Assembly: GCA_020850355.1 (NCBI GenBank)
Contig: JADZEX010000037.1
Location: forward strand, 62,001-126,000
Source: Fimbriimonadaceae bacterium
GTDB taxonomy: Bacteria > Armatimonadota > UBA10988
Reading direction: 5' to 3'
Length of the DNA: 64,000 nt
Notes under the pieces: generated by a model
The model's database searches: none
The model's input: the letters and a program-made list of their open reading frames with translations, nothing else
Told to the model about the DNA's origin: nothing
Program-made: the position numbers and the translations under genes
Part shown: piece by piece, positions 5,080-21,758 of the stretch
Position numbering within the stretch: the stretch's first letter is position 1
How the letters are laid out: each line of letters starts with the position of its first letter

Positions 5080-5096
5080 TGGCAAGTTCATTGCAT
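5080..5096 (+). promoter_or_regulatory. Sigma-54 (-24/-12) promoter for the helicase gene
   Basis: TGGCAAG-TTCA-TTGCAT matches the RpoN consensus TGGCACG-N4-TTGCW with one mismatch (C to A). The GG and GC elements have the required 12-base register. The predicted start of transcription is near 5107. That leaves a leader of about 24 bases holding the perfect Shine-Dalgarno AAGGAGG (5117-5123) before the GTG at 5131. The local AT-rich patch stands out in this GC-rich genome. The geometry matches the site at 19481-19496. Confidence 0.68.
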
Positions 5097-17647: not shown

Positions 17648-18643
17648 GTGGCCGACGCCGGCTGGCACCTCGTGCAGGTCGGCTGCGGCGGCTTCGGACG
17701 TTACCATCTGCAGGTCTGGCGCAAGCACCCGGCCGTTGCGCAAGTCACCGTGCTTGGTCGCGACCTCGCCCGGCTGGCGCCGCTGGAGGCCGAGTTGGGC
17801 TGCGCCGTGACCACCGACCCGGCGGTCCTCGCGACAGCCGACCTGGTCGATCTGGTGACCCCGCCAGACACGCATTACGCCCTGGCGTCCGCCGCGCTGG
17901 CGCAGGGCCGGCCGACCATCGTCGAGAAGCCGCCCTGCCGCACCGCCGCCGAGGCCCGCCGGCTGGCCGAGCTGGCCGGCGCCATCCCGCTCTACTGCGT
18001 TCAGAACCTCTGCTGGTCGCCCGTCTGGCAACGTGTCAAGGAGCTGCTGGCCAGCGGCGTGATCGGCCAGCCGCGGCTGTCGCTCTGGCCGGTGCTGACC
18101 GACCAGCGGCGGCTGCTGACGGGGGGCGACTTCCGCTCCGAGGCGGCCCGCGGCGGTGGGGCCCTGCTCGACGGCGCCATCCACTACGCCTACCTGGTCC
18201 CGTGGGTCCTCGGCGCGCCGATCCGCGCCGTCACCGCCTGGGCCGGCCAACTGGCGGCGTCGCCACCGGCGGGCGAGGACACCGGTCTGGCGGTCTGGCA
18301 GGTGGGTGAAGGAGTCGCCCAACTGACCTACTCCTGGGCCGTCGCCGACCCGCCCCGCTCGGCCGCGGCGACGCTGATCGGCGACAAGGGCACTTTGCTG
18401 GTGCCCCGCTCGGCGAAGCAGCCGCTGGAGCTGCTGCAAGGTCGCCAGGTCCACCAACTTGACCTCGGGCCCTGGCAGACGACCTCGCGCAACGACCTCG
18501 GCAACTGCCTCGGCCATTACCTCGACTGCGCGCGGCAGCAGGCGGCGCCGCAGACGAGCTGGGCCGCGGCGGTGCAAGCGCAGGAGGTGATCGAGGCGAC
18601 CCTCGCCGCGGCGGCCAGCGGCCATCGGCAGGTCGTGCCGTGA
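17648..18643 (+). CDS. Gfo/Idh/MocA family oxidoreductase
   Basis: 331-aa NAD(P)-dependent sugar or sugar-acid dehydrogenase. The Rossmann motif QVGCGGFGRYH sits at the N-terminus. The family motif with the catalytic lysine is VEKPPC, followed by the alpha/beta C-terminal domain (GGGALLDGAIHYAYL). The GTG start lies one base after the GH88 stop. The GTGA overlap at the end couples it to the membrane protein gene. Its neighbours suggest it oxidises or epimerises a sugar released by GH88; the exact substrate cannot be read from sequence. Confidence 0.88.
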   Translation: MADAGWHLVQVGCGGFGRYHLQVWRKHPAVAQVTVLGRDLARLAPLEAELGCAVTTDPAVLATADLVDLVTPPDTHYALASAALAQGRPTIVEKPPCRTAAEARRLAELAGAIPLYCVQNLCWSPVWQRVKELLASGVIGQPRLSLWPVLTDQRRLLTGGDFRSEAARGGGALLDGAIHYAYLVPWVLGAPIRAVTAWAGQLAASPPAGEDTGLAVWQVGEGVAQLTYSWAVADPPRSAAATLIGDKGTLLVPRSAKQPLELLQGRQVHQLDLGPWQTTSRNDLGNCLGHYLDCARQQAAPQTSWAAAVQAQEVIEATLAAAASGHRQVVP

Positions 18644-19407
18644 ACCACCCGGTGTTCCGCGACTGGTGGCGGCTGGCGCGCGGACTGCTGGCCGGCTGTG
18701 CCCTGGGGCACTTCCTGGTGACCGCTGACCTGACCGCCGGGCCGCTGCTTCTGGCACTGGCGATGGCGCTGCTGCTCGGTTGGTTCACCTGGGGCGAACT
18801 CAGCCTGCCGCGGGTCGACCTGCCGGAGTCCGCGGCCACTTTGCAGGACTGGGTCGCGGTGCTGGCCGCACTGGCCGACCTGCCGACGCCCCGGATCACC
18901 GTAGTCGCCGCTGCCAGCGGTGCCTTCGATCCGCCGGAGTCGCTGAATCTGGCTGGCGAGGTGGTCTTCGCGACGGGCGACCTGGAGACCCACGAGCTGT
19001 CGCACCACCTGGCGCAAGCGGCCCGACAGCTCGCCGTAGCCCAGGCACCGCCGCGCTACAGCGCCGCTGGACTGCTGGCCAGCGGTGTTGGCCTCGGGCT
19101 GCTGACCGGCCTGCTCCAGCGCAGTGGCGGCGCCTGGTGGGCCGCCCTACTGGCCATCGGCGGTCTGTTCGCGCTGGGGGCGCTGATCGTGGCCCGCGGC
19201 ACCAGCGCTCAGGAACTGCGTGGCCAGCGGATCGAGCAGCGCGCCCGCGAACTGCTCGGCCTGCTCCGCGACCGCCACCCCGAGGCCTTTGCCGACTTGC
19301 TCGCCCGGCAGGGCCTGGCGCCCGCCGCGAGCGACCTGATCCAACTTCAGGACCACCCCACCCCGCCCCGCGCCTGCGACCACGACGCTCCGCCGCCGGC
19401 TGGCTAA
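18640..19407 (+). CDS. Membrane protein with HELSH motif (possible M48-like metalloprotease)
   Basis: 255 aa. The hydrophobic segment at ~10-50 (AGCALGHFLVTADL, LLLALAMALLLGWF) and the pair at ~150-185 (GLGLLTGLL, WAALLAIGGLFALGALIVA) are membrane helices. Between them lies VVFATGDLETHELSHHLAQAA, cut here to its core HELSHH: a HExxH zinc motif in the same context as M48 proteases (after a short strand, before a helix hairpin). The protein is shorter than HtpX and the third zinc ligand is not obvious, so catalytic activity is uncertain. The GTG start overlaps the previous stop. Confidence 0.65.
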   Translation: MNHPVFRDWWRLARGLLAGCALGHFLVTADLTAGPLLLALAMALLLGWFTWGELSLPRVDLPESAATLQDWVAVLAALADLPTPRITVVAAASGAFDPPESLNLAGEVVFATGDLETHELSHHLAQAARQLAVAQAPPRYSAAGLLASGVGLGLLTGLLQRSGGAWWAALLAIGGLFALGALIVARGTSAQELRGQRIEQRARELLGLLRDRHPEAFADLLARQGLAPAASDLIQLQDHPTPPRACDHDAPPPAG

Positions 19408-19426
19408 GCCAGTTCACCTTCAGGCG

Positions 19427-19477
19427 ACAGAGCCGTCTGTAAATCGTGGAAGAGTGCCCCTAGCGAAATCGAGCTAG
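19427..19477 (+). promoter_or_regulatory. Two inverted repeats upstream of the sigma-54 promoter (candidate activator sites)
   Basis: ACAGA-GCCG-TCTGT (19427-19440) and CTAGC-GAAATCGA-GCTAG (19460-19477) are perfect 5-base-arm dyads. They lie about 70 and 35 bases before the predicted start of transcription. Sigma-54 promoters need an upstream-bound AAA+ activator, so dyads here are worth noting. The arms are short and could be chance. Confidence 0.3.
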
Positions 19478-19480
19478 AGC

Positions 19481-19496
19481 TGGCACGGCATTTGCA
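19481..19496 (+). promoter_or_regulatory. Sigma-54 (-24/-12) promoter for the PEP-CTERM gene
   Basis: TGGCACG-GCAT-TTGCA is a perfect match to the RpoN consensus TGGCACG-N4-TTGCW with correct 12-base register. Predicted transcription start is near 19507. The 24-base leader contains GGCGGAGG before the ATG at 19531. In Proteobacteria, PEP-CTERM genes are known to be driven by RpoN with the PrsK/PrsR system, so the position upstream of a PEP-CTERM gene fits known biology. Confidence 0.8.
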
Positions 19497-19530
19497 GAGC
19501 AGCTCCAGCGACTAGTGGCGGAGGCTTCGA

Positions 19531-20220
19531 ATGCGGCGAGTGCTTTGGATGGTGGTGGTGCTGGTCCCCGGTCTGGTGCAGGCTGGTCCGGTGGTCAATG
19601 GCAACTTCGAGACCGGCAGCCTGAACCCGTGGGTCGGCAGCACCGACCCAGCGGCGTTGCGCGACCCGAAGGTCACCAACGGCGCGGCCGGCGGCGGCAT
19701 CAACGGGATCAGCGGCAGCAAGTACGACGACTTCGCGGTGCTCGACACGACCGACCCATCCGGCAACATCTCCGGCCAGACCTGGTGGTCCAGCATCACG
19801 CAGACCGGCGTCACGCTCGGCGGCGTCACCGGCACGCTGCAGTTCAAGCTCACCGACCCGAGCGACCCAACGGTGCCGACCGGCAACCAGTCGGGGCTGC
19901 TGCTTGACAACATCCGGGTGGTCAACAACAACAGCCTGGCCTGGGACTGGTACGCGCTGACCAAGAAGGACCAGGCGCGCAACGACTACTACCAGGTGCT
20001 GTTCAACCACCAGGAGCTGTTCCGCTTCAACTACACCAGCTCGTTGATGCCGACCGGCAACTACGGCGGCGGCGGCGGCACCAACTTTGGGCCGTTCAGT
20101 TACGGCACCTGCTGGCAGAGCAGCACCGTCACGGTGCCGCCGGTGCCGGAGCCGGCCACCTGGATGCTGCTCGGCCTGGCCCTGCTGCCGGTGGCTCGCG
20201 CCCGGCGCCGCCGCCGCTAG
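19531..20220 (+). CDS. PEP-CTERM sorted surface protein
   Basis: 229 aa. A signal peptide (MRRVLWMVVVLVPGLVQAGP) is followed by a secreted domain opening VVNGNFETGSLNPWVG, which resembles carbohydrate-binding or choice-of-anchor domains. The body ends in a glycine run and then the sorting tail: VPEPATW, a hydrophobic helix and RARRRRR. Exosortase would cleave at the PEP motif and anchor the protein at the envelope. No exosortase gene is in the window. The gene has its own sigma-54 promoter and a strong terminator hairpin, so it is a single-gene transcription unit. Role is probably in matrix or surface display; ligand unknown. Confidence 0.93.
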   Translation: MRRVLWMVVVLVPGLVQAGPVVNGNFETGSLNPWVGSTDPAALRDPKVTNGAAGGGINGISGSKYDDFAVLDTTDPSGNISGQTWWSSITQTGVTLGGVTGTLQFKLTDPSDPTVPTGNQSGLLLDNIRVVNNNSLAWDWYALTKKDQARNDYYQVLFNHQELFRFNYTSSLMPTGNYGGGGGTNFGPFSYGTCWQSSTVTVPPVPEPATWMLLGLALLPVARARRRRR

Positions 20221-20278
20221 GTTTCCGGGGGGCCTGCGCCACCGGAGTGCGCCGCGGTCACCATCGACCCGGCGCCAC

Positions 20279-20318
20279 ACCACCGCCGTCACGCCGAGGG
20301 GGCCGTGACGGCGGTGGT
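20279..20318 (+). terminator. Strong hairpin after the PEP-CTERM gene
   Basis: A perfect 15-base inverted repeat (ACCACCGCCGTCACG and its complement) around a 10-base loop. It is followed by CTGTTGGG rather than a T-run. It sits about 60 bases after the stop, so it is probably a transcription terminator or mRNA-stabilising hairpin. Confidence 0.7.
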
Positions 20319-20375
20319 CTGTTGGGAAGGTGCCGCACCGCCGTCGTCCAAGCGGTCCGGGCAGCGGAGCCCGCG

Positions 20376-21758
20376 ATGATCGCTTCGATGCTGCTGCTGG
20401 CCAACCTCGCCGTCGAGCCTCTCCCACCGCGCGTCGGGCCGCGACCGCGGCCCGCGCTGGAAGTCGGACAACGCCGCGAGCTGTTCGTCGACGCCGCCCT
20501 GATCGATGGCTTCAGCGGCAGCGCCCGGCGGGTGCTGCACCACCCCGTCCCGGCCAACGCCGCGCTCACCCTCGACGGGGCTGCCGAGGGGCCGACGTCG
20601 GCATACTTCACCGTGCTGCGCGATGGGGACCTGGTCCGGCTCTACTACCGCGGCCAGGGCGGTGAGGCCGGCCGCGAAGTAACCTGCTACGCCGAGAGCC
20701 GCGACGGTCTGCTCTTCACCAAGCCCGCCCTCGGGCTGGTCGAGCACGCCGGGTCGAAAGCCAACAACATCGTCTGGGCCGGGGCTGGCACGCACAACTT
20801 CTCGCCGTTCCTCGACAGCCGCCCCGGATGTCCGCCCGAGGAGCGCTACAAGGCCGTCGGCGGCGGCCCCCTGCTGGGCTTCGTCTCGCCCGACGGCCTG
20901 CACTGGCGTCTGCTGCGGCCGGAGCCGATCCTCACCAAGGGCGCCTTCGACAGCCACAACGTGGCCTTCTGGGACCCCACTCGCGAGCAGTACGTCTGCT
21001 ACTTCCGCACCTTCAAGGACGGCGTGCGCTGGATCACCCGCGCCACCTCGCCCGACTTTCGCACCTGGTCGGAGCCGGTCGACCTGACCTTCGGCGACGC
21101 GCTGCCGGAGCACCTCTACACCAACAACATCGTGCCCTACGACCGCGCGCCGCACCTGCTGCTGGGCATTCCGGCGCGCTTCCTGCCCGACCGGCGGAAA
21201 GACCCGCAGCACCCCGTTCCTGGTATCAGCGACGCGGTGCTGCTGGCCAGCCGCGACGGCCTGGCCTTCGAGCGTTGGCGGGAGGCCTTCCTGCGCCCCG
21301 GCCCCGACCCCCTAAGCTGGACCGACCGCACCAACTACCCGGCCTGGGGCATCATCCAGACCTCGCCGACCGAGCTCTCGATCTACTGGACCGAGCATTA
21401 CCGCCACCCCGACCTGAAGCTCCGTCGCGGCACCTTGCGACTGGACGGCTTCGTCTCCGTGGGAGCGGATATGTCTGGCGGCGAGCTGCTGACGGCACCG
21501 TTCACCTTCACCGGCCGCCGCCTGCTGGTCAACTACGCCACCAGCGCCGCTGGCAGTCTGCGCTTCGAGCTCTGCGACGAAGCCGGCGAGCCGCTCCTTG
21601 GCCTGGCCTACGCCGACAGCGAGCTGCTCTACGGCGACGAACTGCAGCACGCCGTCACCTGGCAGGGCGGGGATCTGGCCAGCCAGGCGGCCCGGCCAGT
21701 CCGCCTCCGCGTGGCGCTGCGGGATGCGGATCTGTACAGCCTGCGGTTCGCGGAGTGA
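20376..21758 (+). CDS. Secreted five-bladed beta-propeller glycosidase-like protein (GH32/43-type)
   Basis: 460 aa from ATG 20376, which has GCGGAG upstream. The short hydrophobic start MIASMLLLANLAVEPL may be a signal peptide. The body shows repeated blades of the GH32/GH43 kind: LVRLYYRGQ, CYAESRDGL, FVSPDGLHW, FDSHNVAFWDP, YVCYFRTFKDG, ITRATSPDFRTW. The C-terminal ~100 residues are a beta-sandwich (LRFELCDEAGEPL), as in GH32 enzymes. Catalytic acids were not identified, and many such proteins in Planctomycetes and Armatimonadota have unknown substrates. It stands alone between a terminator and an AT-richer gap. Confidence 0.75.
   Translation: MIASMLLLANLAVEPLPPRVGPRPRPALEVGQRRELFVDAALIDGFSGSARRVLHHPVPANAALTLDGAAEGPTSAYFTVLRDGDLVRLYYRGQGGEAGREVTCYAESRDGLLFTKPALGLVEHAGSKANNIVWAGAGTHNFSPFLDSRPGCPPEERYKAVGGGPLLGFVSPDGLHWRLLRPEPILTKGAFDSHNVAFWDPTREQYVCYFRTFKDGVRWITRATSPDFRTWSEPVDLTFGDALPEHLYTNNIVPYDRAPHLLLGIPARFLPDRRKDPQHPVPGISDAVLLASRDGLAFERWREAFLRPGPDPLSWTDRTNYPAWGIIQTSPTELSIYWTEHYRHPDLKLRRGTLRLDGFVSVGADMSGGELLTAPFTFTGRRLLVNYATSAAGSLRFELCDEAGEPLLGLAYADSELLYGDELQHAVTWQGGDLASQAARPVRLRVALRDADLYSLRFAE

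Follow-up and report, generated by a model that had tools for sequence, protein, structure and literature searches.

A predicted sigma-54 promoter before a PEP-CTERM gene, and a putative sigma-54 matrix regulon in Armatimonadota

The PEP-CTERM locus

The window analysed here is a stretch of 64,000 nucleotides (G000:C38:62001-126000, G000 being the genome under study). It carries a gene for a predicted secreted PEP-CTERM protein, preceded on the same strand by an exact match to the sigma-54 promoter consensus. The features of the locus are as follows.

19466-19468, + strand: short A-tract located 13-15 nt ahead of the -24 element, where 21 sites from the family and order are A-rich
19481-19487, + strand: -24 element TGGCACG of the predicted sigma-54 promoter, read directly
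19488-19491, + strand: four-base spacer GCAT between the -24 and -12 elements
19492-19496, + strand: -12 element TTGCA, four bases (GCAT) past the -24 element, read directly
19507, + strand: predicted transcription start, 12 nt past the C of the -12 element
19520-19524, + strand: ribosome-binding site GGAGG, read directly, fitting the ATG at 19531
19531-20220, + strand: gene for a secreted PEP-CTERM protein of 229 aa (open reading frame and PF07589 match)

The TGGCAC-N5-TTGC core is correctly spaced and lies upstream of the gene. The sequence-only reading had placed an exact -24/-12 consensus 35 bases from the ATG, and this was confirmed at 19481-19496, with 34 bases between the end of the site (19496) and the ATG (19531). 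The predicted start follows from the standard -24/-12 geometry, which we take to hold here; if transcription does begin near 19507, the GGAGG would fall inside a 24-nt leader.

In a profile search the encoded protein matched PF07589 with 22.5 bits, above the cut-off of 20.7. The sorting tail (residues 204-229) of this secreted protein combines a C-terminal PEP motif, a hydrophobic stretch and a basic tail, and by eye the start of the protein resembles a signal peptide. Upstream on the same strand lie genes for a GFO/IDH/MocA oxidoreductase and for a protein that has no Pfam match, and the gene at 18640-19407 reads in the same direction as the PEP-CTERM gene. Neither a sigma-70-like promoter nor a + strand terminator was found between positions 18500 and 20500 of the window. 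Elsewhere in the window, at 5080-5095, a sigma-54-like site with one mismatch, TGGCAAGTTCATTGCA, lies 18 nt before an open reading frame of no assigned function.

Exact sites in the genome and its close relatives

When one mismatch was allowed, the window alone contained two matches against 0.82 expected, a number that 17 of 100 shuffles reached and that is not significant. The exact consensus occurs four times in the whole 6.67-Mb genome, against no occurrences of a reversed-pattern control. These four sites are located as follows.

Exact site 1: 34 nt before the start of the window PEP-CTERM gene
Exact site 2: 53 nt before a second PEP-CTERM gene, which lies at C96 and gives the genome's strongest PF07589 match
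Exact site 3: 40 nt before a PF02397 EPS priming transferase (glycosyltransferase) gene at C86
Exact site 4: before a gene at C86:215137 for a protein without a Pfam match above cut-off

Two of the three PEP-CTERM genes in the genome have an exact site; given the observed density of sites, the chance of one lying no farther than 100 nt away at two or more of three genes is about 3e-9. By eye, no such site lies upstream of the third above-cut-off PEP-CTERM gene (C19), and no sigma-54 site was found at the genome's own TPR-exosortase operon.

We picked twenty regions around exact sites within the family and order, with G001, G002 and G004 supplying 15. The priming transferase is preceded by an exact site in G000, G001, G002 and G004, and when the four promoter regions were aligned little was conserved except the promoter itself. 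Exact sites also lie upstream of a poly-export/SLBB (EPS-export) gene in G001, a PrsT gene in G004 (318.8 bits; cut-off 312.2), and a PEP-CTERM gene in G002 that encodes a homologue of the C96 protein (55% over 240 aa). Both G001 and G002 have exact sites before genes for receiver proteins and before one for a small membrane protein, and the G000 counterpart of each has a site with one mismatch. The remaining regions precede a flgB-like flagellar gene in G005 or a phosphatase-like gene in G019 (both by eye), are unclear, or lie inside coding sequence. G002 also encodes a homologue of the window protein itself (45% identity over 231 aa), and its gene has a site with two mismatches lying 43 nt away from a start codon.

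Twenty-one sites, 18 of them exact, were compared for flanking sequence. A was present at 53 of 105 positions from -15 to -11 (11-15 nt before the -24 element), compared with 13% in 20 coding-type one-mismatch control sites, and a pyrimidine preceded the TGG in 20 of the 21 sites, compared with 15 of the 20 controls. In one relative, G001, neither PEP-CTERM nor exosortase was matched, yet exact sites are retained upstream of the priming transferase and the export protein. We therefore read the gene set as an EPS/matrix regulon that would include PEP-CTERM proteins where these are present, and EPS assembly is likely to be its core.

Distribution of sites and RpoN across the phylum

As the sequence-only reading had anticipated, the genome encodes RpoN (TIGR02395, 285.3 bits; cut-off 277.35) together with AAA+ activators, three of them of the NtrC type (C4, C19 and C38). 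It also encodes the exosortase that this reading had proposed to search for, in a single copy (G000:C21; PF09721, 171 bits; TIGR02602, 130.8 against a cut-off of 105.55). A divergent RpoN-like protein is encoded as well (L002 1438-2754, - strand, G000:C62). It matches the C-terminal part of RpoN only, with 65 bits against the cut-off of 277, and has an RpoN-box-like sequence, SRRTVAYHR; its N-terminal half looks unrelated. Partial RpoN matches of this kind were seen in about twelve of the phylum's genomes, including some that lack canonical RpoN.

We surveyed 61 genomes of the phylum for exact sites, using the reversed motif as control. In the 38 genomes whose RpoN is full or nearly so, 181 exact sites were counted against 49 control matches. 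In the 17 genomes with no RpoN match there were 9 sites and 12 control matches, and in the six genomes with only the divergent RpoN-like form there were 9 and 4.

PEP-CTERM genes were then scored in ten chosen genomes, a good site being one with a score of at least 19 of 22 and an in-frame start within 220 nt. This covered 60 of the 65 PEP-CTERM matches; three of the five left out were open frames shorter than 60 aa. Good sites preceded 23 of 33 PEP-CTERM genes in genomes with RpoN and 0 of 26 in genomes without an RpoN match, while the reversed motif preceded 3 of 33 and 3 of 26, respectively. At a score of at least 21 the counts were 12 of 33 and 0 of 26. Fisher's test gave p values of 9e-9 (score of at least 19) and 6e-4 (score of at least 21), treating genes as independent although genes of one genome are not. 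The results for individual genomes were as follows.

Genomes with RpoN: G038 12/14, G048 7/9, G002 2/2, G012 1/2, G010 1/4, G005 0/2
Genomes without RpoN: G015 0/9, G043 0/11, G050 0/6
Genome with the divergent RpoN-like form only: G004 0/1, the upstream DNA being cut by a contig end

Together with the second PEP-CTERM gene at C96, the many relatives with sites bear out the suggestion that -24/-12 elements would be found before other PEP-CTERM genes. The link is not universal. Several genomes with RpoN and many PEP-CTERM matches are almost without exact sites (matches and exact sites, respectively: G029, 61 and 1; G042, 38 and 1; G016, 28 and 1; G006, 29 and 2; G033, 19 and 1), and these belong to families f14 and f4. 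A crude scan of 16 further genes, mostly tail matches to the window PEP-CTERM protein from other phyla, found no exact site upstream; it is uninformative, because PEP-CTERM tails are common to unrelated proteins.

The survey yielded 199 exact sites in total, and the gene context was examined at some of the 150 that were listed. In six genomes 14 of the 41 exact sites read precede PEP-CTERM genes by the tail rule, including 6 of 12 in G038. Priming transferases stand behind exact sites in six genomes of the survey, G038 and G025 among them, and an XrtA-type polysaccharide deacetylase stands behind one in G012 (312.5 bits; cut-off 276.2). In G004 the operon order is site, priming transferase, exosortase, glycosyltransferase, and in G038 it is site, priming transferase, chain-length/kinase protein, glycosyltransferase, exosortase, EpsI (the glycosyltransferases and EpsI were labelled by eye). 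EPS/exosortase operons lie behind exact sites on the same strand in G025 and G057, and in G058 an exosortase lies directly behind the site. Among the 150 listed sites, five have an exosortase downstream of them within 6.1 kb on the same strand compared with 0.12 expected, the distance having been set after the data were seen. The sites are associated with PEP-CTERM, EPS and exosortase genes, and their presence tracks RpoN.

Exact sites in G025 lie at 1253948, 1501118, 3116462, 3202014 and 3208269. Genes behind exact sites in this genome encode a priming transferase, a receiver-PilZ protein, a chain-length/kinase protein and two secreted proteins with TPEL tails. The two secreted proteins (L264 1323-1877 and L269 1234-1791, both - strand) end in STPEL, a hydrophobic stretch and a basic tail and have no family match; the tails are possibly a variant sorting signal for the single exosortase of G025. 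Receiver-PilZ proteins are also found behind exact sites in G038 and G012, and proteins of this c-di-GMP type recur behind exact sites in several families (L157, L166, L270, L273 and L290, the last by similarity to L307), a hint that the regulon may be linked to c-di-GMP. Genes for cold-shock-like proteins (by eye) follow exact sites in families f5 and f9 (L093, L271, L294, L297 and L302). Within one genus, the upstream regions of different sites (L298/L304 and L288/L291) share stretches of 36-69 nt, one of 43 nt being identical; these are either repeats or shared activator regions.

Candidate activators, alternative readings and the putative regulon

We consider it very probable, from the pattern of sites and genes, that the site at 19481-19496 is a sigma-54 (RpoN) promoter driving the PEP-CTERM gene, and that this gene is one target of an Armatimonadota extracellular-matrix regulon comprising EPS and exosortase-sorted proteins. 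RpoN-polymerase would sit at the -24/-12 elements as a closed complex until a sensor kinase switches on an NtrC-type AAA+ activator. The activator would then open the complex, and transcription from the site would start near 19507. The activator itself is presumably distinct from PrsR or has diverged beyond recognition as such.

A PEP-CTERM/EpsH regulon with -24/-12 sites (motif 2), PrsK, PrsR and PrsT has been described in Proteobacteria, and in the consulted parts of that paper the motifs are common, among its genomes, to Proteobacteria only (Haft et al. 2006, PMC1569441). As described there, that system resembles the one here: PEP-CTERM genes are preceded by -24/-12 sites, the genome contains EPS genes and an exosortase, and there is a PrsT-like TPR protein. 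It differs in that the present organisms are Armatimonadota with no PrsR at cut-off, in that simple counts did not reveal motif 1 here (an enhancer that precedes the -24/-12 elements by about 63 nt), and in that here the priming transferases and exosortase operons themselves carry sites. The TPR protein beside the G000 exosortase scored 131.3 to PrsT (TIGR02917) against a cut-off of 312.2.

The circuit could be nothing other than the PrsK/PrsR system of Proteobacteria, acquired by inheritance or transfer, whose PrsR has diverged below the cut-off. The best candidate activator, G000:C4:9211-10536, follows a HAMP-PAS histidine kinase gene, has a 62%-identical relative in the same order in G004, and scored 425.3 bits to the PrsR family (TIGR02915, cut-off 502.6); the other two activators of the genome scored 387 and 373.4. 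PrsT in G004 and the XrtA-type deacetylase in G012, both over their cut-offs behind exact sites, also fit such an origin, as does the contig-edge activator of G055 described below. Against it, the C4 activator scored higher to AtoC (451) than to PrsR (425), and the kinase beside it reached only 88 to PrsK (TIGR02916) against a cut-off of 300. For the second activator-adjacent kinase, PrsK was not among the 25 best families (the two kinases beside activators were the only ones compared). The PrsR cut-off was reached in 0 of 61 genomes, whereas 7 of 13 other genomes, drawn from named loci as a positive control, reached 590-693 bits. Simple counts in the 170-nt stretches upstream of four site sets revealed neither a dyad in common nor a clearly shared k-mer that could serve as an activator-binding motif. 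We therefore regard this origin as unlikely. Since no PrsR above cut-off was found in the 61 genomes, the activator probably differs from PrsR or has diverged from it, and the PrsK/PrsR control that the sequence-only reading had in mind appears not to be present in its recognisable proteobacterial form.

The most PrsR-like activator of the survey is a contig-end fragment in G055 (L192 1-2603, G055:C405), which matches profile positions 84-444 with 462.8 bits. The gene immediately downstream encodes a TPR lipoprotein that matches PrsT weakly (116.5 against 312.2), and the intact G055 protein might exceed the PrsR cut-off.

That the divergent RpoN-like paralogue (G000:C62), and not canonical RpoN, reads these promoters seems very improbable. 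The paralogue does occur beside canonical RpoN in G000, G001 and G002, and G004, which has the divergent form only, carries exact sites before its priming transferase and PrsT. However, with G004 at 88% completeness, its assembly may lack a canonical rpoN that the organism has. Four of the six divergent-form-only genomes (G003, G035, G040 and G014) contain 0, 0, 0 and 1 exact sites, and in a fifth, G028, none of the open reading frames downstream of its five exact sites was EPS- or PEP-CTERM-like by an ORF heuristic.

Equally little probability attaches to a chance match in GC-rich DNA with the gene read from another promoter or by read-through: the one-mismatch count in the window is not above chance, and the same-strand upstream gene without a detected + strand terminator (18500-20500) would allow read-through to contribute, but the exact pattern is rare genome-wide and enriched before PEP-CTERM genes, its presence depends on RpoN across genomes, homologous genes retain sites, and a sigma-70-like promoter was not found in 18500-20500.

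The predicted sigma-54 promoter has a counterpart at the pepA gene of Aquincola tertiaricarbonis, for which an RpoN1-dependent transcript start has been mapped (PMC9850573). According to the parts of that report consulted, pepA is likewise a PEP-CTERM gene with a promoter beginning TGGCAC, and is linked to matrix (floc) formation. Aquincola differs in being a proteobacterium with annotated PrsK/PrsR and a mapped start, whereas the start here is predicted from sequence. The operons behind the sites also resemble the XrtA-type EPS/exosortase operon (NCBIfam TIGR03006, TIGR03007, TIGR03013 and TIGR03025) in containing a priming transferase, chain-length/kinase protein, glycosyltransferase, exosortase, EpsI and deacetylase; they differ in that most components fall below the XrtA-specific cut-offs and lie behind sigma-54 sites. 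In a term search, exosortase was absent from the main texts of PMC4072686 and PMC4959169, and PEP-CTERM from the passages of them that were consulted. In the open-access literature searched, a scope outside which most subscription papers fall, no relevant paper was found that links Armatimonadota (or Armatimonadetes) to PEP-CTERM, exosortase, rpoN or sigma-54.

These comparisons support a sigma-54/PEP-CTERM link wider than the Proteobacteria, as had been proposed from the window: sites before PEP-CTERM genes follow RpoN. The proposal had tied that link to exosortase sorting, and in this respect the control appears broader, since EPS genes keep their sites in a relative without an exosortase match. 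The same type of promoter precedes surface-protein and EPS genes across much of Armatimonadota, seemingly with a different activator protein.

A fuller picture, which we offer tentatively, is of a widespread Armatimonadota sigma-54 matrix regulon in which exosortase/EPS operons, PEP-CTERM cargo and c-di-GMP-linked receiver-PilZ proteins would be switched together by an activator other than PrsR. The sigma-54 link would then belong to EPS assembly first and to sorting second, and sigma-54 control of PEP-CTERM genes would be older than the proteobacterial system or have evolved twice. Sites that track RpoN and cover EPS and exosortase genes in Armatimonadota suggest that matrix assembly is recurrently placed under tightly gated, enhancer-dependent control, and they provide hints to the function of many unannotated genes that lie behind such sites.
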